From contig NZ_JANHDO010000004.1 of the NCBI RefSeq assembly GCF_024494575.1, positions 124,001-188,000 on the forward strand: a stretch of 64,000 bases of DNA, given 5' to 3'. The stretch comes from Halorubrum salinum. GTDB taxonomy: Archaea; Halobacteriota; Halobacteria; Halobacteriales; Haloferacaceae. Every line of letters begins with the position of its first letter. The first letter of the stretch is position 1. Positions 5,494-64,000 of this stretch are shown here, one piece after another. The notes beneath the pieces are model-generated. The model saw nothing but the letters and a program-made list of their open reading frames with translations. It was not told the origin of the DNA and did no database searches. The position numbers and the translations under genes are program-made.

Positions 5494-5555
5494 GGTCCGG
5501 TGTCGTCGCGGCGGGAGGATTATCGTGTCGGTTTCGACGGCGACCGCTCCCCTCG

Positions 5556-6818: not shown

Positions 6819-6819
6819 G

Positions 6820-7701
6820 TCAGGTTCCCGGTTGCAGATCCATGGTTTCGGGCGCGCCGCGCGCCGCGTACACCTTGCGAACGCCTCGGTCGTGGAGGTC
6901 GGTCCCGCAGTATCCGTCCGCGACCGCCGACCGCACCCGTTCGGGGTCGGCTATCGCCGCGCCGGCGACGACGTCGACGCCCCGGTCGAAGAGCGGTTCC
7001 GGCACCGCGGAGGCCGTCGCGCCGACCACGACGACCGTCGCCGACGCGGGGGCGGCGTCGAGATATCGCTCGATTCCCCCGTACACCAGCGTCGATCCGG
7101 TGACGAACGCCACGTCGGCTCCCTCCATCGCGGCCGCGGTCTCCTGCGGCGTGAACGACTCCACCGCGACGCCCGGCGGCGTCGAGACGGTCTCGACCGC
7201 GACGGGCTCGCGCTCGATCACGCCGACATCGACGCCGTCGAACTTCCGAAACGCCGGCCGGAACAGCCCGACCGTGACGATCCGCGACACGGACGCGTCG
7301 AGCAGCGCCATCGGGTCGCCCGTGTGCCAGTCGAGGAACGGGACCGAGAGCGCGTTCAGCGCGGCGACGGCGAGCGCGCGCTCGCCGAGCGGGGCGTCGC
7401 GATCGCCGCGGTCCTCGATCGGTGCCACGAGTCCGTCGAGGGCGTCGGGCGGCGTCGGCGACGACCCCGTCGGGCGGTGTGCGAGGCCCGCAGACGCCCG
7501 ATGCTGGCACTCGGCGTCGTCGCCGGCGTCGGCGACGAGCTCCACGAGCACCGCCGAGGTGCCCACCGTGGCGCGGTCCAGTCGAACGCCGTCGAACGCG
7601 CCGCGGGCGCGAAGCGCGTCGAGGGTCGCTCGCAGAACCGGTCCCGGCCAGTCGGATCCGGAACCGCTGTCAGGCCCGCGATCCGGCTCGGCGTCGGTCA
7701 T
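6820..7701 (-). CDS. DUF364-type (Rossmann-like, putative heavy-metal-binding) protein in the cox operon
   Basis: A 293-residue protein whose second half resembles the DUF364 family described as putative heavy-metal chelation proteins. It has IVTVGLFRPAFRKF, a following VIEREP, then FTPQETAAAMEGADVAFVTGSTLVYGGIERYLDAAP and VVVVGATASAVPEPLFDRGVDVVAG. The N-terminal part (about 1-130) has no clear motif beyond ERALAVAALNALS. The ATG at 7701 overlaps the stop of the VWA gene by 4 bp, so translation is probably coupled. Its position between coxE-like and xdhC genes suggests a role in metal handling for the Mo enzyme; that is inference only, as the family has no settled function. Confidence 0.8.
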   Translation of the reverse strand: MTDAEPDRGPDSGSGSDWPGPVLRATLDALRARGAFDGVRLDRATVGTSAVLVELVADAGDDAECQHRASAGLAHRPTGSSPTPPDALDGLVAPIEDRGDRDAPLGERALAVAALNALSVPFLDWHTGDPMALLDASVSRIVTVGLFRPAFRKFDGVDVGVIEREPVAVETVSTPPGVAVESFTPQETAAAMEGADVAFVTGSTLVYGGIERYLDAAPASATVVVVGATASAVPEPLFDRGVDVVAGAAIADPERVRSAVADGYCGTDLHDRGVRKVYAARGAPETMDLQPGT

Positions 7702-41794: not shown

Positions 41795-41937
41795 GAGACA
41801 GACGAAACGTACTCACCCCCGTTCTCCGTATCCACGCAGGGTGACGCGCGAAGGGAGTGCCTGCAGAGAGACAGACGAAACGCACTGTCTGGATCGCGCT
41901 ATCTTCGTGGAGTGAGAGAGTACGTTTCGTCTGTCTC
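41795..41937. repeat. Origin recognition-type repeats, downstream cluster (three copies)
   Basis: Three copies of GAGACAGACGAAACGTACT: 41795-41813 (+), 41868-41886 (+, with one change, CGCACT), and 41919-41937 as the reverse complement. The third faces the others and is 39 bp from the stop of the orc gene. The second is followed by GTCTGG, so arms AGACAG/CTGTCT flank the core. They are the same motif as the three copies on the other side of orc. Confidence 0.9.
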
Positions 41938-41976
41938 GGAGGTCGATAGCCGTGGTGTGGCGTCTCGGAGGGGATA

Positions 41977-43176
41977 TCAGGACGTGGGGTCTGATTCGGC
42001 CTCTCGTCGAATGTTGAGGACGATCTGCGGGTCGAGGTCGAGTTCGTACTCGTAGTACCTCCCGCCGCCCTCGCCGTGGTTTCGGTCCCGGCGTTGCAGG
42101 AATCCGAGCATGTGCAGATCGGAGAGGTGGTTCTGAATGCTCTTGAGCGTCGTGAGGGGGTCCACGGCGTGCGAGTCGGCGACCGACTCGTACCGGTCTT
42201 TGATCGTTCGCGACCGGGCGGGCGAGTCGTCCTGTTGTTCGATGTACGCCACGGTTTCGAGCAGGAGCTGTGCGTGCTGCGTCTGGTCGCGAATGCGGTT
42301 CCGCAGCCGACCTCGCTGGACGAGTTCCTGCGCTTTGACGATGTGCGAGTCGTCGACCCTGTCGTCGTCACACCGGGTGGCGACCTCGCCGCCGACGCGG
42401 AGGAGGTCGATCGCCTGCCGGGCGTTGCCGCGGTCTTTGGCCGCGATCGCCGCCGCTCTCGCGATGGCCGAGTCGTCACACGCGTCCTCGACGAACGCCC
42501 GATCGGCGCGGTCGGCGAGGATGGTCCGAAGCTCGCTCGCGTCGTACGGGCTGAAGGAGATCTCCGTCTCCATGAGCGTGTCCTTCACCTTCGGCGACAG
42601 CGACTGCCTGAAGGTGTAGTTGTTGCTGATCCCGATGACTCCGACCTTCGACTCGGTGATGTGGCCGATCGACCGCGCCCGAGGAAGCTCGTACAGGAGC
42701 GTGTCGACATCGTCCAGATGATCGATCTCGTCGAAGACGACGAGGTGCGTGCCGCCGATTCGGTCGAGTTGCGCGTAGAGTTCTTCGAACGCGTCGGCCG
42801 TTCCGAGTCCCCGTTTCGGGAAGTCACTCGCGTGATCGGGGAGGAGTTCGTTGACGAGCGTCCGGACGACCGTGTAGAGCGACTTCCCGTTGCAGTTCAG
42901 CTCGTGAACGTGGAGGTCGTCGGCGTCAGACCGCTTCGTGACTTCCTCTTGAAGCGCCTCCATCATGTACGTCGTGACGGCCGTCTTGCCGAGCCCGGCT
43001 TTCCCGTACAGCATGACGTTCTGCGGAGTGCGGCCGAAGAGGACGTCTTGGAGCGCGTGTCGGTACTGATCGATCTCCTCGTCGCGTTCGAGGATCTGAT
43101 CCGGCTGGTGGTCCTCCGAGAGCACCCCCTTCGAGACGAAGATCGATCGCTCGACGTCGCTGAATGGCCCGGCCAT
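41977..43176 (-). CDS. orc: Orc1/Cdc6 replication initiator
   Basis: A 399-residue origin recognition/replication initiator. The AAA+ core has Walker A GKAGLGKT (58-65), Walker B HLVVFDEIDHLDD and the ISNNYTFRQSLSPKVKDTL sensor region with the initiator-specific motif. The C-terminal winged helix (KDRYESVADSHAVDPLTTLKSIQNHLSDLHMLGFLQRRDRN) binds the origin DNA. It recognises origin boxes and loads the MCM helicase. A TATA element (TTTATAAAT on the minus strand at about 43202-43210) lies 25 nt before the ATG, so the message is leaderless. It is flanked by origin boxes on both sides. Confidence 0.95.
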   Translation of the reverse strand: MAGPFSDVERSIFVSKGVLSEDHQPDQILERDEEIDQYRHALQDVLFGRTPQNVMLYGKAGLGKTAVTTYMMEALQEEVTKRSDADDLHVHELNCNGKSLYTVVRTLVNELLPDHASDFPKRGLGTADAFEELYAQLDRIGGTHLVVFDEIDHLDDVDTLLYELPRARSIGHITESKVGVIGISNNYTFRQSLSPKVKDTLMETEISFSPYDASELRTILADRADRAFVEDACDDSAIARAAAIAAKDRGNARQAIDLLRVGGEVATRCDDDRVDDSHIVKAQELVQRGRLRNRIRDQTQHAQLLLETVAYIEQQDDSPARSRTIKDRYESVADSHAVDPLTTLKSIQNHLSDLHMLGFLQRRDRNHGEGGGRYYEYELDLDPQIVLNIRREAESDPTS

Positions 43177-43201
43177 GCGTACGTTCGAGGTTACTACACT
43201 A

Positions 43202-43210
43202 ATTTATAAA
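43202..43210 (-). promoter_or_regulatory. TATA box of the orc gene
   Basis: TTTATAAAT on the minus strand, 25 nt before the start codon of the orc gene. A partial origin-box match (GTCTGTCTCGTCTG) lies just upstream at about 43220-43234. Confidence 0.6.
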
Positions 43211-43329
43211 ACCTGCTTTTGTCTGTCTCGTCTGACTTACAGTATCCGACGTGCCGCCGGGCTAGTCATTTTTCAATTCTCTTGACGATCTCGCCTTTCA
43301 GAGGCCATTTCAAACCGACCAGCGGCAGA

Positions 43330-43562
43330 GAGACAGACGAAACGTACTCTCACACTACGTGGTTTCCAGACGATACGGGCGTCCTTCCGTGGGCGTCAAC
43401 CGAACGCGGCAACCGAGGGGCGACCGACTGCAGTCACCGACTACTCGTAGACGAAAGACAGACGAAACGTACTGTCTCCGTCTCGGTGTGTGCCAGTGAT
43501 GGACGCGGCTGGTCCCGCCGGTCCCGCTCGACGCGTCCGTGAACAGACAGACGAAACGCACT
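43330..43562 (+). repeat. Origin recognition-type repeats, upstream cluster (three copies)
   Basis: Copies at 43330-43348, 43455-43473 and 43544-43562, all in the same orientation: GAGACAGACGAAACGTACT, AAGACAGACGAAACGTACT and CAGACAGACGAAACGCACT. In the second and third the core is followed by GTCTCCG, so AGACAG and CTGTCT form an inverted pair around it. They lie upstream of the orc promoter on the opposite side from the other cluster. Confidence 0.9.
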
Positions 43563-49755: not shown

Positions 49756-50829
49756 TTAGAGTTTGAGCTGTGAGTTCTCGCCGACGACGAGCCGTCGACC
49801 TTCTGGGAGTAATCCGTCCGTGCTCTCGACGTTCGCGCTTCGTCCGATCAGGCTGTCAACGATTCGCCCAGATGCAGTGATCTCTGAGTCGCCGATGACG
49901 ACGCTGTTTTCGATGTGGATATTCGAGAGAGTGACGTTCGCGCCGATCGATGAATACGGCCCGACATAGGTTCCACTTTTGACCGTAGTGTTTTCAGCGA
50001 TAGAGACGGGACCACGGACGACCGCGCCGTCTTCGATAGTTGCGGACTCAGCAAGGCCAACCCGACCGTCGGTCGTCGCGTCCTCTGCGACGGTGCCATC
50101 GGTGGTGAGATTCGTCTCTTCGAGGACGAGCCGATTCGCTTCGAGGATATCTTCTGGTTTTCCGGTGTCTTTCCACCAGCCGGTGACGACATGCGAGTCG
50201 ATCTCGTATCCATCTTCGAGAAGTGACTGGATCGCATCGGTGATCTCGAGTTCACCACGCCACGAGGGTTCGAGGTTATCGATGGCGTCGAACACGGCTG
50301 GCGAGAAGACGTACATCCCGATGAGCGCGAGGTTAGTGGGCGGATCGTCGGGCTTCTCGATGAGCTCAGTGACGTTTCCGTTCTCGTCGACGTCGGCGAT
50401 TCCGAATGCTTGGGGATCATCGACACGCTGGAGCGCGATCCCGGCGCCGTAGTCGCCAGCCTCGAAGCTCTCGACGAGGTCGGTAATTCCCGATTTAAGG
50501 ATGTTGTCACCGAGGTACATCACGAAGTCGTCGTCGCCGACGAAGTCTCGGGCGCATCCGGCCGCGTGTGCGAGTCCCAGGGGGTTCCCCTGAACGATGT
50601 AGGTGATATCGACGCCGTACTTCGAACCGTCGCCGAGGAGGTCTTGAATTTCGTCGCGGCCCTTGTGGCCCAGGATGACGCCGATTTCGGTGATTCCGGC
50701 GGCCTTGAAGTCCTCGACGGCGTACTCTAGGACGGGTTTGTTCGCCACGGGAACGAGCTGTTTCGGGCCAGTGTGCGTGATCGGGCGGAGCCGAGAGCCG
50801 GTTCCGCCCGAGAGGAGAACGCCCTTCAT
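49756..50829 (-). CDS. rmlA: Glucose-1-phosphate thymidylyltransferase, long form (RmlA/Agl11-like)
   Basis: A 357-residue nucleotidyltransferase. MKGVLLSGGTGSRLRPITHTGPKQLVPVANKPVLEYAVEDF is the catalytic opening (GGxGTRLxPxT...KQ), then GLAHAAGCARDFVGDDDFVMYLGDNIL, EKPDDPPTNLALIGMYVF and GWWKDTGKPEDILEANRLVLE. The C-terminal ~110 residues are a left-handed beta-helix (hexapeptide repeats), typical of the archaeal long RmlA type. It makes dTDP-glucose from glucose-1-phosphate and dTTP. The ATG directly abuts the stop of rmlC, so the two are cotranscribed. Confidence 0.93.
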   Translation of the reverse strand: MKGVLLSGGTGSRLRPITHTGPKQLVPVANKPVLEYAVEDFKAAGITEIGVILGHKGRDEIQDLLGDGSKYGVDITYIVQGNPLGLAHAAGCARDFVGDDDFVMYLGDNILKSGITDLVESFEAGDYGAGIALQRVDDPQAFGIADVDENGNVTELIEKPDDPPTNLALIGMYVFSPAVFDAIDNLEPSWRGELEITDAIQSLLEDGYEIDSHVVTGWWKDTGKPEDILEANRLVLEETNLTTDGTVAEDATTDGRVGLAESATIEDGAVVRGPVSIAENTTVKSGTYVGPYSSIGANVTLSNIHIENSVVIGDSEITASGRIVDSLIGRSANVESTDGLLPEGRRLVVGENSQLKL

Positions 50830-51312
50830 TTACTCGTGTGGGGGTGCTTCCCAGTCGAGCGGGATGCGGTCGGTGTCGTATGGAATGCGCTCTTCGTCCG
50901 GATCATCGTAGTCGTACAACTTCGTGGGGAAATTTATGAGCATCGCCCGCTCGTCGCCGATCGCCTTAAAACCGTGCCAACAGTCACCCGGGATGCGAAT
51001 CACCTTCTGGTCGTGCTCGCCGATGACGAACGTATTTATTTCTCCCTTTGTCGGTGAATCGTCTCGTTCGTCGTAAACTCCGACCTTGATCCGTCCAGTC
51101 GGACAGACGAAGTGATCGTTCTGCCCCTTGAGGTGTCGGTGCCACGCCCGGATCGTTCCGGGGTACGTCATCGAATAGTACGCCATCGCCGGCTTTTCGT
51201 CGTATGTATCCCAATCCTCGCGAAACACCTCTGTTAGGTGGCCGCGTTCGTCTGCGTTTACGTTTAGCTCTCGTAACTTGACGCCGCTTATTTGTGTATC
51301 AGCAGTAGACAC
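50830..51312 (-). CDS. rmlC: dTDP-4-dehydrorhamnose 3,5-epimerase-like (RmlC/Agl13-like)
   Basis: A 160-residue cupin. It has DERGHLTEVFREDW, AMAYYSMTYPGTIRAWHRHLKGQNDHFVCPTGRIKVGVYDERDDSP, KVIRIPGDCWHGFKAIGDERAMLINFPTKLYDYDDPDEER, which is the RmlC fold with its conserved His (RAWHRH). It epimerises dTDP-4-keto-6-deoxyglucose at C3 and C5. I use the GTG at 51312: a TATA stretch (ATATTAAAA, plus strand 51333-51341) lies 21-30 bp upstream. The longer frame to 51357 would cover that element. Confidence 0.9.
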   Translation of the reverse strand: MSTADTQISGVKLRELNVNADERGHLTEVFREDWDTYDEKPAMAYYSMTYPGTIRAWHRHLKGQNDHFVCPTGRIKVGVYDERDDSPTKGEINTFVIGEHDQKVIRIPGDCWHGFKAIGDERAMLINFPTKLYDYDDPDEERIPYDTDRIPLDWEAPPHE

Positions 51313-51332
51313 TACTGACCACTTGAATGGCC

Positions 51333-51341
51333 ATATTAAAA
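51333..51341 (-). promoter_or_regulatory. TATA box of the rmlC-rmlA-zinc-ribbon operon
   Basis: On the minus strand TTTTAATAT lies 21-30 nt before the GTG of rmlC, with a longer T-run upstream. It marks the junction between the GC-rich chromosome and the AT-rich island. Confidence 0.55.
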
Positions 51342-51393
51342 AAAATGTGTGAGCCACCTTGGAGAGAATAGATATGAAAATTCCAGACTAGAA

Positions 51394-52391
51394 TCAACTC
51401 AGAGCATCATACACAATTTGAGCCATATCCCGCACCGCTGACAAGGATCCCTCCGAGTACATATCATAGTAGCTATTAGACATGTTTTCAAACACAAGAC
51501 GAAATTTATTTGCAGATTCCCCATCCGAATTATATATCCTCGCTCTGTTAGATTCATATATTATTTTGTTTTGGAGAATACTATCAACAAGATCCTCATT
51601 ACAAGTATAAGAGAATTCAGTACATCCAGTTAGATACTTGTATAGCCTTGTCCACCGATCTCTTTTTTCGATATATTGATCATGGGTAGTGGAAAAACTA
51701 TCGTGAACACGATCAAAAAAGTATTATTTTTTGAACCAACCACCTGATTTTGATGCTGACGATATAATAATAATGGCTCATTTAAACCATATATTCCAGT
51801 TGATATCGCAGTGATAACTGCGATCCAATAGTCATAGTTCCAATTTTGTGGGATGGGAAGAAACTTGTCTTTTAATGACGTGTCAAACAAGATTGTTGCA
51901 CCTTGCACATAATTTCGTCGGACGAGCTGGCGTACTTTTTCGATTTGATCTTGATTATTTTCAGAGTACACAGGATTAAGTGAATCCCATAGTGTAGTAC
52001 GCCTCTCAAGTCTTTCAGATGTTACAATTGAGTTATGATAAATCAACGGTTCAGGTTGCTCCTTTATTGCTCCAACTTGTTTCTCAAGTTTTGTTGGAGC
52101 CCAAACATCATCTTGATCACATATAGCGATCACATCTCCGGAACAGTGTCTAATACAACGCTCGAAATTCTTGTTTGGTCCTATATTGTAGCTATTCTGG
52201 TGTATATTGAATAGATTTGGGAACTCATCTTCATATTTATACAAAATATCAATAGTATTATCGTTTGATTGATCGTCAAACACAATTACCTCATCTGGAG
52301 TACATGTTTGTGACAAAATACTATCTATTTGTTGGCTCAGATACGGAGAGCCATTATAAGTGCAAAGTGCAACAGATACGTTCATTGGCAT
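51394..52391 (-). pseudogene. Family 2 glycosyltransferase, frameshifted near the 3' end
   Basis: Residues 1-~220 read as a normal GT2: MNVSVALCTYNGSPYLSQQIDSILSQTCTPDEVIVFDDQSND, the DxD-type AICDQDDVWAPTKLEKQ, and YDYWIAVITA. At about 51715-51720 (A6 run; coding strand ACTTTTTTG) the frame shifts: the expected continuation, FFDRVHDSFSTTHDQYIEK, then a ~95-residue C-terminal domain ending ...MAQIVYDALS at TGA 51394-51396, is perfectly open in the next frame. As read, the product ends early at 51630. One more T would restore it. A single-base homopolymer change is either a true mutation or a sequencing artefact. Confidence 0.85.
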
Positions 52392-52414
52392 TTTTCATTC
52401 ATACACTCAGACAT

Positions 52415-53368
52415 TTACTGTAGCCGCTCTTGAAGATATTCCCGTAGTATTTTAATATTGTTTTTTGCTGCTATTTTTGTCTGTTGTATATCTTTTTCAA
52501 TAATGATTTTGTGCAGCGGTATGACCAGTATCCTAAACAGTAGATCCGCTATAATCATAGCTTCGATAATGTATGATTGCCTCTGGTGATGTTTTCGGAA
52601 GTACTCAACAAGATCAGCTTTCATTGTATACTGGCTCCATACTGATTGTCGCTTAGTAAATGAGCTGCTTTTTTTGTGAATAACTTCTGCAGAAGGACAG
52701 ATATCAATTCGGTATCCGGAATCATAGATTCTTTTGCAGACATCGACATCGTTGAAATAAAACTCGAATTTTGGATCAATAATATAATCAGATCCGAGCA
52801 ATTCATTACGCACAAGCAAGCAAGCAGCAGGTGGTTGATCAAGCGTAGTAGCCTCACCTACGTCAATTTCTTTTCCGTAATAATACTTTCTCATTCTATT
52901 CGAAAGGAGGCGACTATCCAGTTGTTCACCAATAATTGTTTGAGTGAAAAACACCATCGGTAAGTTCCAAAATCGATAGTAATACATTTGCGCAGACAAG
53001 TCCGGGTTTAGCAATTTTGCAGTCACTCCGCCGACACTGTTGTTTTGATCAAGATGTCGACACAGTTTCTGGAGGGATTGAGGAAGTATAACTACATCTG
53101 GACCCAAAAACAGGACGTATTCACCCTCAATTCTCTCCTGTATTTCGTTTATAACGGCCGCTCCAATATTATTACTCGAACGATAGAAATTAAACTCATC
53201 CACTTCTCTGAATTCACTCACAATGGATCCAAAATCGATAGATTGTGAATTATTGTCAATTATATGGACTTCGTACGATCGGTCGAGGGAGTTCTGCTCG
53301 ATCGAGGACAGACATCTCGTAAGTTGTATATCTGACTCCCAGTTAACAATTATAATACTGAGTTCCAT
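52415..53368 (-). CDS. Family 2 glycosyltransferase (rhamnosyltransferase-like)
   Basis: A 317-residue GT2. MELSIIIVNWESDIQLTRCLSSIEQNSLDRSYEVHIIDNNSQS is the nucleotide-sugar fold, GEYVLFLGPDVVIL the DxD-like region (LGPDV), and FEFYFNDVDVCKRIYDSGYRIDICPSAEVIHKKSSSF the ED and acceptor-side motif of rhamnosyltransferase-type enzymes. The C-terminal ~60 residues carry a hydrophobic helix (LLFRILVIPLHKIII). The ATG at 53368 is set by homology. It lies 23 bp before the frameshifted GT2 gene on the same strand, and is AT-rich with codon use unlike the GC-rich flank. Confidence 0.88.
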   Translation of the reverse strand: MELSIIIVNWESDIQLTRCLSSIEQNSLDRSYEVHIIDNNSQSIDFGSIVSEFREVDEFNFYRSSNNIGAAVINEIQERIEGEYVLFLGPDVVILPQSLQKLCRHLDQNNSVGGVTAKLLNPDLSAQMYYYRFWNLPMVFFTQTIIGEQLDSRLLSNRMRKYYYGKEIDVGEATTLDQPPAACLLVRNELLGSDYIIDPKFEFYFNDVDVCKRIYDSGYRIDICPSAEVIHKKSSSFTKRQSVWSQYTMKADLVEYFRKHHQRQSYIIEAMIIADLLFRILVIPLHKIIIEKDIQQTKIAAKNNIKILREYLQERLQ

Positions 53369-53429
53369 ATTAAGTGTTAGATGGTCCACTGACATACATG
53401 TGCTTATTAGTAACGATACTGACCTTGTC

Positions 53430-54883
53430 TTACATGTATCCAAGATGTCGCAGGGTTTCTTTTGTTGAAGCTGAATTTTCTTGTTCTGATTCCCTTGTCA
53501 TATTAGATGTGGTAATTTTCTCTAAAAATGAGTCGTATCGACCAGATATCACTTTATCATCTATAGATACAATATCTTTGAAGTTTGAACAATTAGCATA
53601 GGTATATCGGTTTTTATATCGTATCATCTTATGTATATTTTTGTTATCATCTTCGAGGTACAATGCGTCTGTCTGTATCTTGTCGGCTCCAACTGCATAG
53701 TTTGAAAAATCATCAATATACTTTGATGCCCTATCTTTAGCTTTCGGCCCGATGCCACGTGATGAAGCTAAAAACCACCCATTAGGTTGCTTAAAGCTCC
53801 TTTGCTTGTCATTGACGACACCTCGTACTACCTTTGGAAAATTCACGGGTGATGAAAGTGAACTCACACATTTTTCATCTGTTTGATTGGGATACTTAAC
53901 AACAAGCGGAACATGTAACAGTTCTTCATTGAGCCCAGCTGCTTCGCCATGCGAACTGATTTGAATTGGCTTATATTCACTCTGTTCTCCGAACCCTTCG
54001 CCATGATCAGATGTAATTACCACCAACGTATTCTCTATATCCTCTTGAATATTCGTAAGAATATGTCTCACATCATTATCTGTTTGAAGGATTGAATCAT
54101 CATATAAATTGATATGATTTTGCTTTTTTGACCACGATCCCTCATTGGAAGCAAACTGCCAGATCTCGTCGTCTACACTTTCATATTCTGCTATCTGATC
54201 ATCACTCGACCAGTTTCGATATTGCTCCTGTGCAACAAAGGGCAGATGGCTACCCATTAAATTGATGCAGGCAGCCCACAGTCGAGATGTATTATCGACC
54301 CATTTTATAAACGAATTCGATATTTTTCGATCTGGGTGCGAATTAGTTGTCTCTCCGAATATCGAATTATCAATCTTTAATTTAACACCATTAAATATAG
54401 ACTTGGTAACGCTATTTTCAGTATATGATTGGGATATAAAATTGTATATGTCTTTGACACCACCGTCAATAATCTCAAATCGATCATCTCGGGGATCATT
54501 TGCATTAGGGAAAAGTAGGTCCACTTGGTTACCTACTGTCTTGTCGAAGTCTCTAGATAGTCCTATATTGAGCTCCGTCAGAAACGGATTCGTAGAGAAC
54601 ACGCCAGTATCATATCCTTCAGATTTTAATTCGCTCCAAATCGTAGCACCTGGTTCGAATGATTTATTTGAAGAAGTCAATTGATGCTGTCGAACAAGCT
54701 CTCCGGTGAAAATTGACGCATGTGAAGTGATACTCCTTTCACTTGGTGCTCTAGCTTGTAGATATGTCGTAGCATTTTCTGCAAAGTCCATATGAATGGA
54801 GTTGTCTGCCGCTGGTATCCATGCAGACTGGTATTTTGTGCCCGTACACTATCTAATATTATTAGTAGAATGTTATTCTTCAT
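53430..54883 (-). pseudogene. Sulfatase-family protein, disrupted by a 2-bp duplication
   Basis: The N-terminus MKNNILLIILDSVRAQNTSLHGYQRQTTPF (from ATG 54883) is one frame and the rest, starting MDFAENATTYLQARAPSERSITSHASIFTGEL, is another. They join exactly if the extra AT in CATATGG (54790-54793) is removed, giving TTPF-MDFAENATTY as in alkaline-phosphatase-fold sulfatases. The main body has VVITSDHGEGFGEQSEY (metal-site Asp and His) and ends ETLRHLGYM. An intact protein would have 483 residues. As it stands it reads as two overlapping fragments, so it is a pseudogene or a phase-off form. Confidence 0.85.
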
Positions 54884-54911
54884 GGTGTGTTGGTCTCTGT
54901 TTGTGTATAGA

Positions 54912-56336
54912 TCAAATATAACCCAAATCCTTTAGTCTCTTCTTTGTCTCATCTTCGGGGTCTGCGGGTCTGTGTCCTTTGTTGGCCTTTTTTAGGTCCG
55001 TCAAACGGTCTTGAACGGCCTCAATCAGTATTGATGGGGCGGCTTCTATGGACTCCTCTGAACTTGCTTTCCAAAATACTTGTTCGCCATTTGACCTTTC
55101 CATGTATTTCATATTGTCGTAATATCCAACTACAGTGTGAATCTTTGCTTGTAAGTCGTTGACCCGATCCGGAATATTATTTCGGTTCAAGTAGTCTTCG
55201 TTCCCTGTAGCTGGACACTCTGAGATACAAATATCACTCCTTTCGATTACACTTGTGACTTCCTCGTTTTTTTCCACCGCGGCATTACGACAAAGGTTAA
55301 ATATTGAACGTAGTTCAGCTGTCCCATCTGGAATGTCATTTATGTCTGGATGAAGGATTAATAACGGTACCTTCAGAACGTTATCGCTCACGGTCTCAAC
55401 GTGTCCCATCCGCCGCTCACCATTATATTCTGGTTCCCCTAGCGCCTGTCCGTGATCAGCAGTGATAACAACTAATGTATCTCGATCATTCTGAACTTCT
55501 TTTACTGTTTTATATAATCTCGAAGCATATATGCTAGCATTTTTTACCTCAGATTTGTATAAATCTTTTATATTTTGCAGATGAGTTTCATTGATTTCAT
55601 GAGTAGTAGAATAGTATTTTTCCAAAAACTCTGGCGGACGGACAAATGAATTATTCAAATGTTCTATATAATCTTGTTTGTGGATTCTGTTACTAACTCT
55701 CCACTGCCTTTGAGCGGAGGGTTGATATGGTGAATGGGTACTCATAAGGTTGATAAATGTGAAAAATGGGGAATTACTGCTATATTGTCGCAGGAATTTA
55801 GTAGCTCTCTGAAATGTATTGTGTGTACGTTGGTCACCGTTAATCAGTCCAAGCTTGAGACAACTATCAACAGCAACATTTTTTATACTAGCAATTGGAT
55901 GATCATTTAATAATGCCTGCTTAACAACGTCTGAGTAGTGCCAAAGACCATTATGCACAGAATCATACTCGGCAGGTTTGAACCCGGATTCCTCATACCG
56001 AGTTGGTTCCTCAAAAATATCAAATGGTTGATCAAAGCTGCACCGTTCAGAAGCATACGGATTTGCTGAAAAACCAGATGTGGTGTATCCTTCTGAGTTT
56101 AGCTCATCAACCAAAGGAGCAGACAGGTTTTGCCCGTCGTAAAATATTTCGTGTTCACTTGGCAATTTACCTGAGAATATAGAGGCGTGAGATGGAAGAG
56201 ACCACCTAGCCGGTGCAACCGCATGTTCATAGAATACACCCCCTTGCGAGATCTCCATGAGTTCGTTAGCGTACTGTTTTATATAGTCTGTTCTAGCAGA
56301 ATCTAATACAATTAATAGTATATTTGGTTTTGTCAC
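54912..56336 (-). CDS. Sulfatase/phosphotransferase-fold protein (intact)
   Basis: A 474-residue protein of the alkaline-phosphatase superfamily. It starts MTKPNILLIVLDSARTDYI (metal-ligand Asp), has APARWSLPSHASIFSGKLPSEHEIF where sulfatases carry Cys/Ser-x-Pro-x-Arg (here S-L-P-S-H), and VVITADHGQALGEPEYNGERRMGHVETVSDNVLKVPLLILHP with the metal Asp/His pair. The C-terminus KKRLKDLGYI is common in haloarchaeal members. Because the signature Cys is absent, it may be a phosphotransferase or a sulfatase of another type rather than a classical arylsulfatase. It is the intact paralogue of the disrupted gene next door; both sit among glycosyltransferases. Confidence 0.85.
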   Translation of the reverse strand: MTKPNILLIVLDSARTDYIKQYANELMEISQGGVFYEHAVAPARWSLPSHASIFSGKLPSEHEIFYDGQNLSAPLVDELNSEGYTTSGFSANPYASERCSFDQPFDIFEEPTRYEESGFKPAEYDSVHNGLWHYSDVVKQALLNDHPIASIKNVAVDSCLKLGLINGDQRTHNTFQRATKFLRQYSSNSPFFTFINLMSTHSPYQPSAQRQWRVSNRIHKQDYIEHLNNSFVRPPEFLEKYYSTTHEINETHLQNIKDLYKSEVKNASIYASRLYKTVKEVQNDRDTLVVITADHGQALGEPEYNGERRMGHVETVSDNVLKVPLLILHPDINDIPDGTAELRSIFNLCRNAAVEKNEEVTSVIERSDICISECPATGNEDYLNRNNIPDRVNDLQAKIHTVVGYYDNMKYMERSNGEQVFWKASSEESIEAAPSILIEAVQDRLTDLKKANKGHRPADPEDETKKRLKDLGYI

Positions 56337-56901
56337 GTTCAGTTATACTTAACCGATTGGGTTATACTTTTTCAATTTTCAGATCGTCGTTTAGAGATTG
56401 ATTTTCAGAACTGGCTAGTTCTATTCAAATTCTGCTATTTTCATATGTTTTTTGTCTGAGGTGGCAGATCGTTCAACAGTGATAAAATAAGATAATTTAT
56501 ATAAAATAAATTTATGGATGGGATGGTTGGATAAATATAATCAGATGATAATGACTACAGTAATTCTAGCAATCATTACACCGAGAATGATTGAGATAAC
56601 CCGGCAATATCTCTTTCTCCCAGCGGAAAACGGTGTACCACAATATTGAGGATGACTACAAGGATGACAGATGCAACAATTACTGTCGATTAGGTTTAAT
56701 ACCTGGATTCCATTCTTACGATACGGTTTGTTATCAGAAACTAAAAAGTTAGTGTTTGTACTGATCACATCGAAATAAAACCGGTCTCTTTTTGAGAATC
56801 TCAACTGAGACAAGTTACTGTAGACCTGTAGTACAACACTAGATTTGTATTCTGCAGCTTAATAGCCACATTATTATAAAGACAGGTCGATAGTAGAAAC
56901 A
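56337..56901. other. AT-rich noncoding gap
   Basis: 565 bp between the sulfatase-fold gene and the LpxD-like gene, strongly A/T-rich. A weak 90-codon frame on the minus strand (56541-56813) has several Cys and a hydrophobic C-terminus but no recognisable domain. TTATTATAAAG at about 56871-56881, ~25 nt before the LpxD-like ATG, is a TATA-type promoter. I see no repeat or RNA gene. Confidence 0.55.
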
Positions 56902-57732
56902 ATGGAATTACAATCAGAAGAGATAGCGATAGAGTATGAAGTAGAGCACCAAGGGGACCCGACCTTGGTAACTGGTGTTGCAAGCCTAGAGCACGCAACA
57001 AAAAACGATCTGACATATGCAACCAGTTATGATGATCCAAAGACAATCAAAAAGACGGATGCTGGTATTCTTATTGTACCACCCAGTCTAACCCACAAAC
57101 GCAAGCGTTGTGCCACTCTTATCGCGAATAACCCACGCTTGTTGTATTGTAAAGTCACCGAAGAGTTTGTGGACTCAAAAGAGATACATAGATCTGCTAC
57201 AATCGAAGACGGCGCAATCATCGGAGACAACTGTTCAATCGGTGCGAACGTATACATAGCAGATTATGTTACAATCGGAGATAATTGTGTGATTCAACCC
57301 GGAGCAATCATTGGAGGCGATGGGTTATATTTTATGCGTGATCATAAAGGGAAACTTCGAAAACACCATCAAGTGGGTGAAATCCATATCGGTGATAACG
57401 TAGAAATTGGATCAAATACTTGCATTGACCGAGCTATGTTTGATGAGACAATTATCGAGAGTGGATCGAAACTCGATAATTTTGTTCACGTTGCACACGA
57501 TGTTCATATTGGCCAAGACTGTTATATTCCGGTGGGTTGTGTCTTTGGAGGACACGTTGTACTAGAAAACAAAGTACGGATGCAACCTGCTGCTGCTATC
57601 GCATCATACAGTACAATCCATGAGGGGGCAGAAGTGGGTATGAATTCAACCGTACTCGGCGATGTTGAAGAATATAAATTGGTTGTCGGATCCCCAGCAG
57701 AGGTAGTGGGAGAGTCATCTGTTCATAAATAA
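56902..57732 (+). CDS. LpxD-like left-handed beta-helix acyltransferase
   Basis: A 276-residue protein. The N-terminal ~90 residues have the LpxD-type non-hexapeptide domain: LVTGVASLEHATKNDLTYATSYDD and DAGILIVPPSL. Then hexapeptide repeats (IGDNCSIGANVYIADYVTIGDNCVIQPGAIIGGDGL, IGDNVEIGSNTCIDRAMFDETIIESG) and the catalytic-His segment LDNFVHVAHDVHIG follow. LpxD acylates UDP-glucosamine in lipid A synthesis, but archaea have no lipid A, so a nucleotide-sugar or aminosugar acyltransferase is more likely. Near an aminosugar pathway (FdtA/DegT), an N-acyl donor step is a fair guess. A TTATTATAAAG element marks the promoter. Confidence 0.85.
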   Translation: MELQSEEIAIEYEVEHQGDPTLVTGVASLEHATKNDLTYATSYDDPKTIKKTDAGILIVPPSLTHKRKRCATLIANNPRLLYCKVTEEFVDSKEIHRSATIEDGAIIGDNCSIGANVYIADYVTIGDNCVIQPGAIIGGDGLYFMRDHKGKLRKHHQVGEIHIGDNVEIGSNTCIDRAMFDETIIESGSKLDNFVHVAHDVHIGQDCYIPVGCVFGGHVVLENKVRMQPAAAIASYSTIHEGAEVGMNSTVLGDVEEYKLVVGSPAEVVGESSVHK

Positions 57733-57753
57733 AATAAAAGACGCTCTTGTGAC

Positions 57754-58732
57754 GTAGATTGTTGGTGAGTCAGAGAACTGCTTTGATAATCTATTTCAGC
57801 ACCTCTCGACCGGGTTCACGGAGGATTCGTCGCCGAAGTTGGAGCGGTCTGAGATACGCTGTCAGTTTGTCTTTTGGGACGCCTCGATGCAGCGAGAGCC
57901 ACCGTCGCGCCAGCTACGCGTGGCTCTCGCACGTGTTCATGTGTGCGTCTCTATCAACGTACTCGCCGTCACTGTGAATAACTGCTTCTCGGTGAGGGCT
58001 CTCGTCATCGTCGAGTGAATCGTCGGCCCGAAATCCGTCAGTATAGACGGTTTGCGACTCCTTCTCGTGGTTGCCGAGAAGGAGTCGCACCGTCGCTTCG
58101 TCGGCGGATTTTGCCGGGATAACGTATCGCTGACCGCTGCCGCGATCAACCAGCGTGAACACCGGCGGTTTGTCCTCATCGTACGTTCCCCGGCCGCGTT
58201 TCGAGAGCCCACGCGAGCGCGACTCTTGGTCGCGTTCACGGTCTTTCTTCCCGGCAGAGACGCAGAACTCGTCGATCTCGACCGGGCCAACGAGGGAGAT
58301 GGCTGGCGTGTCGAGGATTCTGGCGAACTGCTCGACGCGCCGCCGGAGCGACCGATACGAAACGTCGATTTCAGCGTCTGACTGGCGGATGCTCGTGTTG
58401 AACCGGAGGAACGAGTAGAACGCAAACAACAGTTTGTCGAGGCCGATCTTCGCGTGCGCGAAGATCGATGCCGGTCTTGTCGTTGAACGTGCGGTCGCAA
58501 TCCTTACAAAGATACCGTTGATACTCTCGATAGTGCCGTGTTTGATCACTGACTCAGACCGGCAGTGCGGGCAACAGAGGCCCTCTCGCCAGCGAACCTG
58601 CTGGAGCAGGTTCGCGGCGCTCGCCTCCGAACTCAGCAGTTCAAATGGGAACATCGTGTTCGGGTGACGGGTTCGAGTCACCCTTGCCCGCTACGCTTCC
58701 ACAGCGACAGTTCTACCTGACCAACAGTCTAC
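57754..58732. mobile_element. IS1595-type insertion sequence (about 980 bp)
   Basis: The element is bounded by inverted ends GTAGATTGTTGGT (57754-57766) and ACCAACAGTCTAC (58720-58732), identical at 12 of 13 positions when reverse-complemented, and holds one transposase gene on the minus strand. No 8-bp target duplication is visible at the ends (CTTGTGAC on the left, TTCCGAAG on the right). It inserted next to the LpxD-like gene, 22 bp past its stop. Confidence 0.8.
57914..58681 (-). CDS. IS1595-family transposase with a compensated double frameshift
   Basis: A 255-residue product that is open throughout but scrambled between about residues 50 and 72. It has VRWREGLCCPHCRSESVIKHG (first zinc-ribbon Cys pair), then out-of-frame residues, then SIFAHAKIGLDKLLFAFYSFLRFNTSIRQ and the DDE part (LVGPVEIDEFCVSAGKK, VFTLVDRGSGQRYVIPA, TVYTDGFRADDSLDDDE). 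In the next frame, 58470-58532 reads YREYQRYLCKDCDRTFNDKTG, the expected second Cys pair and linker, so two indels of opposite sign lie near 58533 and 58468. The zinc ribbon is lost, so it is probably inactive. Confidence 0.82.
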   Translation of the reverse strand: MTRTRHPNTMFPFELLSSEASAANLLQQVRWREGLCCPHCRSESVIKHGTIESINGIFVRIATARSTTRPASIFAHAKIGLDKLLFAFYSFLRFNTSIRQSDAEIDVSYRSLRRRVEQFARILDTPAISLVGPVEIDEFCVSAGKKDRERDQESRSRGLSKRGRGTYDEDKPPVFTLVDRGSGQRYVIPAKSADEATVRLLLGNHEKESQTVYTDGFRADDSLDDDESPHREAVIHSDGEYVDRDAHMNTCESHA

Positions 58733-58791
58733 TTCCGAAGAGCGAATAAAAGAAAGCACCTGTAAATACAGATCACGGTTAAACGAAACCG

Positions 58792-59214
58792 TTATTGGGA
58801 ATTTGAATAATGTATAAAATTTCGGTATCCCCGAACATAATCATCTTCATCGTACTTCCGCGAAGCAAGTACGAGACACACTGATCCAGACGAAAAATTC
58901 TCTAATTCCCGCCACACCCCAGGAGGCATATAAATCCCGTAGTAAGACCGATTCAGATTCACGCGCTCCCGCTGCTCTGCATCATCAAGAATCAAATCAA
59001 AACTTCCATTCGCAGCGATGATTACCTGCTCTAACTCTCGATGCGCATGACCCCCACGCGACTCACCGCCGGGCACGTCATACAGGTAATAAACCCGCTC
59101 GATATCGAATGGAACGTGTTCGTTCTGCTCGATATACGTGAGATTCCCTCGTTCGTCGGCCACTTTCGGGAAGTCGATTCGTCGACCGATCTGCAGGTCG
59201 TCCTCTTCACGCAT
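58792..59214 (-). CDS. dTDP-4-oxo-6-deoxyglucose 3,4-ketoisomerase-like (FdtA/QdtA/WxcM)
   Basis: A 140-residue cupin. FPKVADERGNLTYIEQNEHVPFDIERVYYLYDVPGGESRGGHAHRELEQVIIAANGSFDLILDD has the FdtA hallmarks RGGHAHRE and GGESRGGHAH, and YYGIYMPPGVWRELENFSSGSVCLVLASRKYDEDDYVRGY is the conserved second half (the VWRELENFS and Y(D/N)E.DY). It moves the 4-keto group of the RmlB product to C3. The ATG at 59214 overlaps the stop of the aminotransferase gene by 8 bp, and both are transcribed together on the minus strand. Confidence 0.88.
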   Translation of the reverse strand: MREEDDLQIGRRIDFPKVADERGNLTYIEQNEHVPFDIERVYYLYDVPGGESRGGHAHRELEQVIIAANGSFDLILDDAEQRERVNLNRSYYGIYMPPGVWRELENFSSGSVCLVLASRKYDEDDYVRGYRNFIHYSNSQ

Positions 59215-60307
59215 CGTCGAACCCCGCGACGACATCGGCGACCCGCGCGATCTCCTCCTCGCGACACCACGGATGCATCGGCAACGAGACGATCCGATCT
59301 GCCACTCGCTCCGTCACCGAGAGATCGCCTCGTTTCCCGACACCCTCGTACGCCGGCTGTTCGTGGACCGGCGTCGGATAGTGGACGAGTGTCTGCACAC
59401 CGTGGTTATCCAGATATGACCGAAACTCCTCGCGATCGTCAGTCTCCACCACGTACAGATGATAGACGTGCGTTCGGTCGTCCTCGACTGTCGGCGTGGA
59501 CACGCCGTCGAGCAGGTCGTCATACGACGCTGCGACTTCTCGACGTCGCTCGTTGAGCTCATCGAGACGGGTGAGCTTGTACCGTAACATCGCGGCCTGA
59601 ATCTCGTCGAGACGGCTGTTCACACCGACGAATTCGTATCGGTACTTTTCGGAAGCCCCGTACTCACGGGCCATCGACACACGCTCGGCGAGGTCGTCGT
59701 CGTCAGTGACGACAATTCCGGCGTCGCCGTACGCGCCGAGATTCTTCGTCGGATAGAGGCTGAAGCACGCGATGTCTCCAAGACTTCCTACTGGGTCGCC
59801 GCGATACGTAGAGCCATGTGCCTGCGAGGCATCCTCAACGACTGCGGCATCGTGTTCCTCGGCGATTTCGAGGATCGGGTCTACGTCTGCCGGCTGTCCG
59901 TAGAGGTGTACCGGGACGATTGCCGCCGTCTCGTTGTTCACATGTTCGGCGACTGCCTCCGGATCGATAGTGTAGGTTTCAGGATCAACATCAACGAACA
60001 CAGGGATTCCACCGTTTCGGACGACCGCGTCTGCGGTCGAGATGAATGTATGCGAGGGAATAATAACTTCATGACCCTCAACGCCAATAGCCTGCATAGC
60101 GAGGTAGAGTGCGTCTGAACCAGAATTCACGCCAATACTATAATTTGTACCAATATATGTTGAGAACTCGCCTTCAAATGCAGCAGTTTCCTCATCAAGG
60201 ATGAAACGACCGCTAGCGAGTGCTGTCTGTACCTTTTTGACGAGTTTATTGCCGTACTCGGAATACTCTCGTTGAAGGTCAAGAAAGGGAACTCTAATAC
60301 TGGACAT
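59207..60307 (-). CDS. DegT/DnrJ/EryC1/StrS aminotransferase (FdtB-like)
   Basis: A 366-residue PLP enzyme. VPFLDLQREYSEYG is the N-terminus, GVNSGSDALYLAMQAIGV and VIIPSHTFISTADAVV are cofactor loops, AAVVEDASQAHGSTYRG has the Asp pair, and SLYPTKNLGAYGDAGIVV contains the PLP Lys (TKN). YEFVGVNSRLDEIQAAMLRYKLTRL and LPMHPWCREEEIARV follow. It places an amino group on the 3-keto sugar made by the FdtA-like enzyme encoded next. The ATG at 60307 (MSSIRVPFLD) is the family start. It would produce a dTDP-3-amino-3,6-dideoxyhexose. Confidence 0.9.
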   Translation of the reverse strand: MSSIRVPFLDLQREYSEYGNKLVKKVQTALASGRFILDEETAAFEGEFSTYIGTNYSIGVNSGSDALYLAMQAIGVEGHEVIIPSHTFISTADAVVRNGGIPVFVDVDPETYTIDPEAVAEHVNNETAAIVPVHLYGQPADVDPILEIAEEHDAAVVEDASQAHGSTYRGDPVGSLGDIACFSLYPTKNLGAYGDAGIVVTDDDDLAERVSMAREYGASEKYRYEFVGVNSRLDEIQAAMLRYKLTRLDELNERRREVAASYDDLLDGVSTPTVEDDRTHVYHLYVVETDDREEFRSYLDNHGVQTLVHYPTPVHEQPAYEGVGKRGDLSVTERVADRIVSLPMHPWCREEEIARVADVVAGFDDA

Positions 60308-60391
60308 GATTCTATGCATTATACTCTCGTCAAAATAGTTTATGTTCAAAATACTTGAAGATAATTTCAACCATGTGTACTTGTGTATAGC

Positions 60392-61168
60392 GGACACTGT
60401 TTGAAAAACAGATAGTTGGCGTTTTAGTTCGGTCGTGTTTAGTTAAGGATAAACAGTGAGGCGGAGTGATTTCTTGCTGGTCTATGCAGAAATCTCCCGC
60501 TTCAACGGATGTACAGACTGAATTGATTTGGATTTTGTGGAGCGCCAGCGGACACCCGAGCGTGCGATGAAGATTGGTATTCAACTCCAGTTAGTGGGGC
60601 TTCGCTGTCGAATACCGTCTCTCTTCTCGAGGAACTGGATGTCGAGCGATCTCGCAAGGCAATCCAATTGGATACATAAGGCCGATCTACAGCCCGCAGA
60701 AGGCCGAAGCCCGAATCACGTTGCGATTGACGAAACCGTGATTCGAATCAATGATCAGCAATTCTGGCTGTACGCTGCGGCTGATCCTGAGACGAACGAT
60801 CTGCTACACCTCCGATTATTTTCGACGACAACGACTGCATTAACCGAGATGTTTCTCCGAGAACTCCGCGAAAAACATGAAGTTGAATCTGCCGTATTTC
60901 TCGTTGATGGCGCTCAACACCTCCAAACTGCGCTTGCTAGAGCTGGACTTCGATTTCAGACAGAACGCCATGGAAATCGGAATGCCATCGAACGGATCTT
61001 TCGAGAACTCAAACGCCGAACGTCTTCCTTCTCAAACTGTTTCAGCCATGTTGAGCCTCAAACCGTCGAAAAGTGGCCCCAAGCATTTGCTGCCTGGCTC
61101 AATGCTCCAAAAAACACGACCATCTCAACACCGCCATATCGCTCTAGCAGAGGTTTCAAATAGTATCT
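60392..61168. mobile_element. IS6-type element, degraded remnant (about 780 bp)
   Basis: Inverted ends GACACTGTTTGAAA (60393-60406) and TTTCAAATAGTATC (61154-61167) match at 12 of 14 positions when reverse-complemented, bracketing a single transposase pseudogene on the plus strand. The short size and missing start fit a decayed ISH14/15-type (IS6/IS240) element of haloarchaea. I did not find target duplications. Confidence 0.78.
60484..61163 (+). pseudogene. IS6-family transposase pseudogene
   Basis: The body from about 60528 resembles IS6/ISH transposases: DFVERQRTPERAMKIGIQLQLVGL, NHVAIDETVIRINDQQFWLYAAADPETNDLLHLRLFSTTTTALTEMFLRELREKH (catalytic Asp), VFLVDGAQHLQTAL (Asp) and RHGNRNAIERIFRELKRRTSSFSNCFSH (catalytic Glu). 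Damage seen: an in-frame TGA at 60519-60521 where the family has Arg (CGA), a shifted segment at about 60608-60668 that reads SNTVSLLEELDVERSRKAIQ in the next frame, and a missing base near the start codon (ATGCAGAA). The element cannot make a functional transposase. Confidence 0.82.
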
Positions 61169-61188
61169 AAACCAAATCAAGCACTTGT

Positions 61189-62019
61189 ATGTGTGATTCC
61201 CCACAATTTAGTATTATCTCCGTCTATAATGATGAGGAAATACTCTCTGAATTTTTACTAAAAGGACTAAGAAACCAAACCTGCCAAAATTTTGAAAAAA
61301 TACTAGTGAATAATTCAGATGGAATCTACTCATCTGCAGCATCAGCACTAAATGCAGGAGCAGATGATGCTTCTGGAAAGTATTATGTATTCATACACCA
61401 AGACGTGTTATTACCTCCACATTATCTTGAAGAAGCGATGAATTATCTGAACGATATTGGTGAATTTGGCATTGCAGGCGCTGTCGGCGTGAAGGGAGAT
61501 GATTCAGTACCTCCTCGTCCAGTTGATGTCAATATTATTCAAACTGGTCTCAATAAAACTAGTAGAGAATCCAATGTCAAAAACATTTCCGACCCAGCAG
61601 AGGTCGAAGCAGTAGACGAGTTGTTACTTATAATCCCTGCAAAAGTATTTTCTAAAGAAAATTTCTCACAGGATATCTGTAATGGTTGGCATCTATATGG
61701 AATCGAGTTTTGCCTAAGGATGAAGTCAGTTGAAAAGCAAATAATTACTCTCCCAATCGAGCTTTGGCACCGTGATGGAGAATTGAAGCGAAATTGGAAA
61801 CATGATCTCACATTACTTCGAATAATAAATGAGTACGATAATGTAGATAGGATCTATGTACCCCGCCATTCATGGCCAGCGACTAGAACACATGTGATAT
61901 ATCGTTTACTCAGAAACATACCCATTATTAATATTGTTGTCAGAGTCATACACTCAATAAAGAAGAATGGATTATATGACACACTCAGGTTGATCTCAAA
62001 AAGGCTGAGACGAATATAA
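61189..62019 (+). CDS. Family 2-like glycosyltransferase
   Basis: A 276-residue putative transferase. FSIISVYNDEEILSEFLLKGLRNQTCQNFEKILVNNSDGIYSSAASALNAGADDASGKYYVFIHQDVLLPPHYLEEAMNYL has the GT2 nucleotide-sugar fold with HQDV as the DxD-equivalent. Later VDELLLIIPAKVFSK and GWHLYGIEFCLRMKS resemble the acceptor-side loop. The C-terminus is basic with hydrophobic runs (NIPIINIVVRVIHSIKK). It begins 21 bp after the IS6 remnant, so the element may sit in the promoter. Substrate unknown. Confidence 0.8.
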   Translation: MCDSPQFSIISVYNDEEILSEFLLKGLRNQTCQNFEKILVNNSDGIYSSAASALNAGADDASGKYYVFIHQDVLLPPHYLEEAMNYLNDIGEFGIAGAVGVKGDDSVPPRPVDVNIIQTGLNKTSRESNVKNISDPAEVEAVDELLLIIPAKVFSKENFSQDICNGWHLYGIEFCLRMKSVEKQIITLPIELWHRDGELKRNWKHDLTLLRIINEYDNVDRIYVPRHSWPATRTHVIYRLLRNIPIINIVVRVIHSIKKNGLYDTLRLISKRLRRI

Positions 62020-62331
62020 CGGTCAGATTGTATTATACACAGATACATTAATAGTAAGAAAATATATTAAATTGCTGAAAGATATAATCGAAAAATCACA
62101 CTTAGAGCCTAGCTCTAGTGATAAATAGATGGTATATCTTCCCATTATTTATTTCATTCAGTCGCTAGTCGTCAGAATCGCTGAGTCGTATATTCCCCAT
62201 TCAGTCGACCAGTAAAGACTGATCAAGAGATGGACATATATCGGGGTTTAGAATATTTCTACCGACAATTTCATTATAAAATTGCCAACTTAACCAGTTT
62301 TCAGTTCAAACCACTGCAGTCCTTCACAGTG
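62020..62331. other. AT-rich gap with no supported gene
   Basis: 312 bp between the converging family 2-like and group 1 glycosyltransferase genes. It is A/T-rich with no repeat, IS end or hairpin that I could support. Short frames here lack coding signs. Confidence 0.5.
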
Positions 62332-63393
62332 TCACGTTCTACCGTTGTTACCCTGTTGTACCGTCTTAATTGCTCTGAGTAATCTTTGACCGGTATGATC
62401 TGCCCAAAATCCAAACTTTTCAACAGTGTCAATACAATCCTTTCTCATATCCTCGATTTCTAATGGCTTCTCGGCGATGTGTGAAAGAACGTGTTCCCAG
62501 CCTGTTTTGTTAACGTGATATCCATTCGTCCCGTCATCGATTAAGTATTGTAATAATCCGACTGGTGACACTGCTACTGGAATGCCAAGAGCGAGGCATT
62601 CCACGACAGAGGTAAATCCACCTTTCGACTGTGCCCACTTATCGTCACGAAGAGGGCGTAATCCGACATCAACTGCAGATAAGTCCTCCACAGCGGACTC
62701 AAGTGACCACGTTATATACTCTACATCTTTTCCTTCTCTATTTTTAAACGGGCGCACCGGTATTGAGTCTGCAGTAATAATTCGAAGCTGTAAATTTCCA
62801 TGCTCATCTAAAACTTTTGATATTTCCGATTCTATATTCGACAGATAGTGAATATTTTCACGATTTCCAATCCAACCAAGAAGTACATTATTATCAGATC
62901 TGTCTGAATATTTTTGATGTTTTTTATATTTACTTTTAGGTATACCAGTATGAATACACTGAACCTGATCTGAATACTTCTCGGCGTATTTGTACAAACT
63001 CTTACTTCCAGCTATCGTTAAATCACATCTCCTCAAGAGTTCGTTCAATTCCAATGTTGTTTTTTCAGGAATAGAAGTGCCTGGCGGAGACTCATAGAGT
63101 GCGTCATCAAAGTCGTAAATCATTTTTTTTGAGATGGTATCAAGTATCCGGGTAAACCAAATCGGGAGTGTTTGCTTTTGAATATACACTATATCATATC
63201 TCGGAGCATCAAATAAGATATTAATTGCAAACTTAATTTTTTGGTAAAGTGTGGGATTCTGGCTATCTAGTGTCGATGCAGGAATAACTTTTGTGTAAAT
63301 CCCATTTTTGTGTAGAGTTGGTAGATGCTGATAAACTCGCAGCCGAGAACTTGCTTTCTCTTTGTTACCAATTGTAATGAAAAGAACCTTCAT
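62332..63393 (-). CDS. Group 1 (GT4-like) glycosyltransferase
   Basis: A 353-residue GT-B enzyme. MKVLFITIGNKEKASSRLRVYQHLPTLHKNG opens the N-terminal domain, YDFDDALYESPPG and ELLRRCDLTIAGSKSLYKYAEKYSDQVQCIHTGI follow, and the C-terminal donor domain has VLLGWIGNRENIHYL and LSAVDVGLRPLRDDKWAQSKGGFTSVVECLALGIPVAVSPVGLLQYLIDDGTNGY. Length and motif order are typical. It probably adds a sugar to the surface glycan made in this island. Its A/T-rich codon use differs from the rest of the chromosome. Confidence 0.88.
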   Translation of the reverse strand: MKVLFITIGNKEKASSRLRVYQHLPTLHKNGIYTKVIPASTLDSQNPTLYQKIKFAINILFDAPRYDIVYIQKQTLPIWFTRILDTISKKMIYDFDDALYESPPGTSIPEKTTLELNELLRRCDLTIAGSKSLYKYAEKYSDQVQCIHTGIPKSKYKKHQKYSDRSDNNVLLGWIGNRENIHYLSNIESEISKVLDEHGNLQLRIITADSIPVRPFKNREGKDVEYITWSLESAVEDLSAVDVGLRPLRDDKWAQSKGGFTSVVECLALGIPVAVSPVGLLQYLIDDGTNGYHVNKTGWEHVLSHIAEKPLEIEDMRKDCIDTVEKFGFWADHTGQRLLRAIKTVQQGNNGRT

Positions 63394-63455
63394 GAGTTTC
63401 TGTGTTTTTTTTTTTGAATTAGTCTTTGAAAGTTAGCACAATATATTAGACTTTT

Positions 63456-64000
63456 CTACTCGAATTCACTGTCTCGGTAATTATCATAAAGGACTGCATC
63501 AGTTTCTCGATCGAGTAATGTGAGAAGTGTTAGCAATAAAAAGACATGGTTTCGTGGGTATTCGTATATCCTATTTAAAAACACCTCTTCTATACTATCA
63601 AAATCGATCACCGTAGAGGACCCTGCAATCTGATCATTAATGCATTCAATTAGCGTCTGAGATGTTGTTGCATTAGTGCGCGTACCAATGATTTTCTTAG
63701 CGTATGGTAAGACGTACGCGAGGATCTTGGGATGGCGTTTGAGATTGTCATGAAGAGCATATCGAAGAGTGTGTGATCGGCTTGCTGGAGGCACACCGAC
63801 GTTTGCGTTCACTATTTTGGTTAATTCAGGCGCAAGCTCATTGAGAAATACAGTGAATAGCTTAAATCGATGTTTTTGTGAATCTGGACATTTCATCGCG
63901 TATGATAGTACTTCGGGAGCGTAGTAGGGAGAGGTTGTCCACATATAATTTCTATTCGTATCTGTTGCTTCAAACAGCCAAGCAAAACCTCGTTCAAACA
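63456..64000 (-). CDS. Asparagine synthase-like protein, C-terminal part (cut by window edge)
   Basis: The frame runs off the right edge, so only the last ~180 residues are present. It reads FERGFAWLFEATDTNRNYMW, TTSPYYAPEVLSYAMKCPDSQ and KHRFKLFTVFLNELAPELTK in order, then a helical end. From memory this resembles the C-terminal part of asparagine synthase-like proteins found in haloarchaeal glycan clusters, where they could amidate or modify a sugar acid. No catalytic residue lies in the visible part, so the function is a suggestion. Confidence 0.5.
   Translation of the reverse strand, partial: FERGFAWLFEATDTNRNYMWTTSPYYAPEVLSYAMKCPDSQKHRFKLFTVFLNELAPELTKIVNANVGVPPASRSHTLRYALHDNLKRHPKILAYVLPYAKKIIGTRTNATTSQTLIECINDQIAGSSTVIDFDSIEEVFLNRIYEYPRNHVFLLLTLLTLLDRETDAVLYDNYRDSEFE

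Follow-up and report, generated by a model that had tools for sequence, protein, structure and literature searches.

Does the orc1/cdc6 gene in this part of the Halorubrum salinum genome, together with the repeats on its two sides, constitute an origin of replication, and do initiator and repeats belong to each other? In the window (the whole stretch of 64,000 nt that was analysed) the gene is accompanied by six matches to a 19-bp box with 0-2 mismatches, three in each flank. On the grounds of sequence comparison we consider it very likely that this is a predicted haloarchaeal origin adjacent to orc1/cdc6, one of several in the cell, in which the initiator and its own boxes would be inherited as one unit. 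The features discussed below are the following:

41795-41813, plus strand: downstream box 3, 0 mismatches, in the minority orientation
41868-41886, plus strand: downstream box 2, 1 mismatch, in the minority orientation
41919-41937, minus strand: downstream box 1 (proximal), 0 mismatches, directed outward from the gene like in nearly all relatives
41977-43176, minus strand: orc1/cdc6 initiator gene, 399 aa, with AAA+ ATPase, Cdc6 lid and C-terminal winged helix
43180-43290, no strand: AT-rich stretch separating the gene from the upstream boxes, 43% GC, the likely unwinding region
43203-43211, minus strand: TATA-like element in the promoter of orc, some 30 bp away from its start codon
43212-43235, minus strand: degenerate seventh box, TCAGACGAGACAGACAAAAGCAGG on the minus strand, immediately upstream of the orc TATA box
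43330-43348, plus strand: upstream origin recognition box 1 (proximal), 0 mismatches
43455-43473, plus strand: upstream origin recognition box 2, 1 mismatch
43544-43562, plus strand: upstream origin recognition box 3 (distal), 2 mismatches

The translation of the gene matches TIGR02928 with 405 bits (cut-off 181) and also the Cdc6_lid and Cdc6_C families. Over nearly its full length it can be aligned to the structures 2v1u (E=4.6e-52) and 2qby_A (E=1e-50), and both the Walker A (GKAGLGKTAV) and the Walker B motif (VFDEID) are intact. With an AAA+ domain plus winged helix and a length above 300 aa this is a full-length Orc1/Cdc6 protein, which agrees with the initial annotation, where the initiator had been called intact. 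The Orc1/Cdc6 proteins of Sulfolobus (2qby) and Aeropyrum (2v1u) belong to the same protein family nearly end to end, but their sequence similarity is only distant, and the box described here is not known to resemble theirs.

That annotation had also placed six boxes around the gene, three per flank and one of them inverted, and all six were recovered exactly. By chance, 0.03 boxes would be expected in the window at up to 3 mismatches, and 0 shuffles gave six. When the 18-mer core was searched throughout the genome (6 contigs, 2,727,534 bp), these six places were the only ones at up to 2 mismatches; at 3 mismatches one extra site appeared, and the pattern read backwards as a control likewise yielded one. 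A scatter of the motif around the genome, named beforehand as an observation that would speak against an origin, was thus not seen. Repeated boxes in both orientations occupy both intergenic regions, which corresponds to the arrangement asked of an origin, namely at least two boxes, inverted. The absence of a GC-skew switch from the locus within its 279-kb contig speaks against an origin, but is weak evidence in haloarchaea with multiple origins.

The closest Orc proteins, 91-94% identical, are those of a genome of the same genus (G030), of a Haloferacaceae MAG and of Halalkalirubrum salinum. They are followed at 83-85% by Halorubrum aquaticum, Halorubrum sodomense, Halobacterium salinarum DSM 3754 and others, and at 67-75% by Haloferax, Natrinema, Halococcus and more. 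To survey the layout, we took 46 non-redundant loci with an Orc at least 64% identical and counted boxes within 600 bp of the gene. This gave 222 boxes, compared to 4 for the reversed core. At least two boxes are found in 46 out of 46 loci and boxes on both flanks in 43, and 215 of the 222 are directed outward from the orc gene. Some relatives have up to eight boxes on a single flank (L140). At the Halorubrum salinum locus the outward rule is obeyed upstream and by the proximal downstream box, but the two outer downstream boxes are reversed, and this unusual orientation of two out of three downstream boxes has to be counted against the origin reading. More distant relatives with a 58% identical Orc (L079-L090) were considered for this box group and rejected, being mostly without these boxes. 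Three of them (L086, L082 and L084) hold 1-3 copies of the GACAG box, and most of their clade has none. A second orc of G030 (L096, C2:1077265-1078449), also 58% identical and with an internal TAG, is located 8 kb from the ortholog and is without these boxes.

With one consensus taken per locus, the right half of the box is nearly fixed as CGAAAYGTACTCTC, and its left part is variable, reading GACAG here, AGCAC or AACAC elsewhere, and in rarer cases other forms. Mapped on the Orc tree, the box type changes 9 times compared to 34.3 times when the labels are shuffled, a contrast that is inflated by near-copies, and 15 of the 16 GACAG rows fall into one clade (support 97/89). Further orc genes are present in the Halorubrum salinum genome, and two of their loci have flank repeats of their own, TTTCACTCTGGACGAGGGGTGT with a G run at L008 and TTTCACCGGAAACACGGTGT at L009, both unlike the box here. 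Because the layout recurs, the box tracks the Orc and the boxes of other orc genes differ, we interpret the gene as an initiator and the repeats as the origin recognition boxes cognate to it. The earlier suggestion that the box is specific to its initiator therefore appears well supported by the sequence comparison, and it agrees with the published matching of Orc families to particular boxes in haloarchaea (PMC3528665). Within the same genus, different Orc clades (L074, L076, L077, L072 and L073) come with AACAC, AGCAC and GACAG boxes, so that several origin types of the family coexist there.

How does this arrangement relate to origins already known? In Wu et al. 2012 (PMC3528665), Hlac_1078 of Halorubrum lacusprofundi is listed among the orc genes with boxes in both flanks. 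The 93% identical Orc of G030, which is located at 1.0855 Mb and flanked on either side by boxes of the same sequence, is very probably Hlac_1078, judged by gene position and layout. For this reason we assign the locus to an origin family that had been predicted before; the kind of origin is already known in haloarchaea, and the locus adds one member to it. Like the haloarchaeal oriC1 (orc7/cdc6A type), it has an AT-rich stretch and inverted boxes next to an orc1/cdc6 gene. However, oriC1 is universal and has G-string boxes, whereas the family described here is confined to 72 of 392 genomes and has GTACTCTC instead. To our knowledge the Orc of oriC1 is conserved in all haloarchaea. An identity with oriC1 was therefore rejected, as the present family is patchy and lacks the G-string. 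Haloarchaeal boxes have indeed been described as ending in a G-string (PMC3936714, PMC3528665), and in the oriC1 boxes of Haloarcula hispanica, the one species in which this was shown, the terminal G-string is essential (PMC3936714). At the end of the box considered here no G-string is found; GAAAC is followed by GTACTCTC in Halorubrum salinum and in nearly all relatives, which places the box outside the G-string (oriC1-like) class. A literature search for the box sequence gave no relevant match.

The layout also resembles oriC2-cdc6E/oriC2D of Haloarcula hispanica, where an initiator gene with upstream boxes is likewise joined by a further downstream cluster. There the downstream boxes number 11, compared to three here, and the likeness is one of layout. 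This downstream cluster lowers origin activity in Haloarcula hispanica (PMC3936714). In Natrinema J7, two predicted-origin fragments that flank one cdc6 gene both replicate well (PMC5350488), again a likeness of layout. The ortholog of Halobacterium salinarum (83% identical) was compared to the published NRC-1 knockout primers for orc5, orc8 and orc10, none of which matched at fewer than 4 mismatches. With the primers unmatched, we claim no link between this ortholog and the mapped NRC-1 origins.

An Orc of this family, defined by a match with E below 1e-130, is patchily distributed over the 392 genomes of the order and missing from many close relatives. The genus can therefore do without this origin, which could be dormant. 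In this narrower form of the origin reading, the locus would be intact but outcompeted by other origins of the cell during normal growth, a dormant or relict origin acquired together with the neighbouring variable region, and we hold this to be quite possible without leaning towards it. The 83-85% identical orthologs occur in the genus itself as well as in other families, and in the Orc tree the Halobacterium salinarum row is placed among Halorubrum rows. This comparable identity within and beyond the genus, in agreement with the tree, points to horizontal movement of the Orc. The position of the locus fits such an acquisition: on the left side of the contig, synteny with the Halorubrum lacusprofundi-like G030 breaks off where elp3 ends, and beyond this break follow a NUDIX gene, orc and a TauE gene. 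Past TauE there are nucleotide-sugar, glycosyltransferase and sulfatase-like genes, named from their translations, and a low-GC stretch. According to PMC3528665, acquired origins are located in variable regions that contain many polysaccharide genes. Furthermore, precedents for dormancy exist in oriC4-cdc6H of H. mediterranei (PMC4595724) and in oriC4 and oriC5 of Haloarcula hispanica (PMC3528665). On the other hand, the boxes are retained in all 46 relatives surveyed and most of the reading frames are open, which suggests at least occasional use. The main DNA match to the orc locus of G030 is confined to the promoter box, the gene and the first downstream box; it looks as though this segment were the inherited unit. 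The low-GC polysaccharide island adjoining the origin, with its glycosyltransferase, sulfatase-like and nucleotide-sugar genes, is located at 174-192 kb of the contig with a GC of about 0.43, and within the window it takes up about 50000-64000.

Turning to base composition, the intergenic stretches had been described initially as A/T-richer. This holds for the upstream side, with 57% GC, a 50-bp minimum of 34% and the core of 43% at 43180-43290, against a window mean of 63%, whereas it fails for the downstream side, where GC is 65% and thus slightly above the mean. A GC content as low as that of the core is found in only 0.3% of equal windows over positions 1-50000, and the equivalent place is low in GC in most relatives. 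By its composition, the stretch at 43180-43290 is the AT-rich segment between boxes that is to be expected in an origin, and unwinding is predicted there.

This stretch also contains the orc promoter, with a TATA-like sequence that is kept as GGTTTTAAATAT and similar in relatives. Directly upstream of the TATA box, close orthologs retain AGACAGACGAGACAAACAAAAGCAGG followed by TTTTAA. The seventh box at this place is inverted relative to the upstream boxes, and its left half is identical to the left half of a main box. In 32 of 38 loci its two-letter identity equals the type of the main boxes; 0 of 20,000 shuffles equalled this agreement, a statistic that ignores kinship. Because it sits at the promoter and covaries with the main boxes, we propose that the initiator regulates its own gene: the element suggests a candidate initiator site at the orc promoter, and we infer that it would also complete an inverted pair bracketing the AT-rich stretch. 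More tentatively, we put forward a distinct class of haloarchaeal boxes, in which the fixed GTACTCTC half may replace the G-string, the left half may specify the identity of the initiator, and a site at the promoter may allow an autoregulation similar to that of DnaA.

The degenerate box abutting the TATA box and covarying with the main boxes would also be compatible with a role of the boxes mainly in the control of the orc gene, by autoregulation and titration, with initiation taking place elsewhere, and the downstream boxes of Haloarcula hispanica oriC2 indeed titrate the initiator while having no origin activity themselves (PMC3936714). This is improbable, however, in view of boxes that are found in each of the two flanks at distances of up to 400 bp, inverted and with an AT-rich core like in proven origins, while the genome offers the initiator no other box cluster. 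Short repeats can occur in intergenic DNA, but chance or low-complexity repeats beside an unrelated gene may practically be dismissed, given the excess of six boxes over the expectation and a layout that is conserved over many genera.

Under the preferred reading, that of an origin with its own initiator, the Orc, by family an ATP-dependent AAA+ initiator, would bind the boxes upstream and downstream of its gene. The AT-rich stretch would be bracketed by the upstream boxes and the inverted, degenerate promoter box; it may then melt and become the site of MCM loading. Judged by its position and covariation, the promoter box may let the initiator damp its own transcription, and the downstream boxes, by analogy to the downstream cluster of Haloarcula hispanica oriC2, may absorb extra initiator and restrain initiation. 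The locus supports the view that in haloarchaea an initiator and the boxes matching it are transferred together from one chromosome to another, and provides a clear case checked against a whole genome. That one half of the box is fixed while the other tracks the tree offers direct targets in the search for the residues that determine origin identity. With the covarying promoter box, it becomes easy to test whether an archaeal initiator regulates its own gene.

Finally, boxes were also seen apart from their gene. At L111 (G035 C6, 3905-4247) five near-perfect boxes, two one way and three opposite, have no orc gene within the 9 kb examined, and their neighbours resemble exopolysaccharide synthesis genes; candidate readings are an origin that lacks the gene belonging to it, or a site for titration. 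At L112 (G052) three boxes are left at 4897-5314 and the cognate orc is lost: sequence equal to 5797-5923 of the Halalkalirubrum salinum locus L044 is fused directly to sequence equal to 7167-7455. A different, Orc-like gene of 506 aa (5358-6878) adjoins these three orphan boxes.
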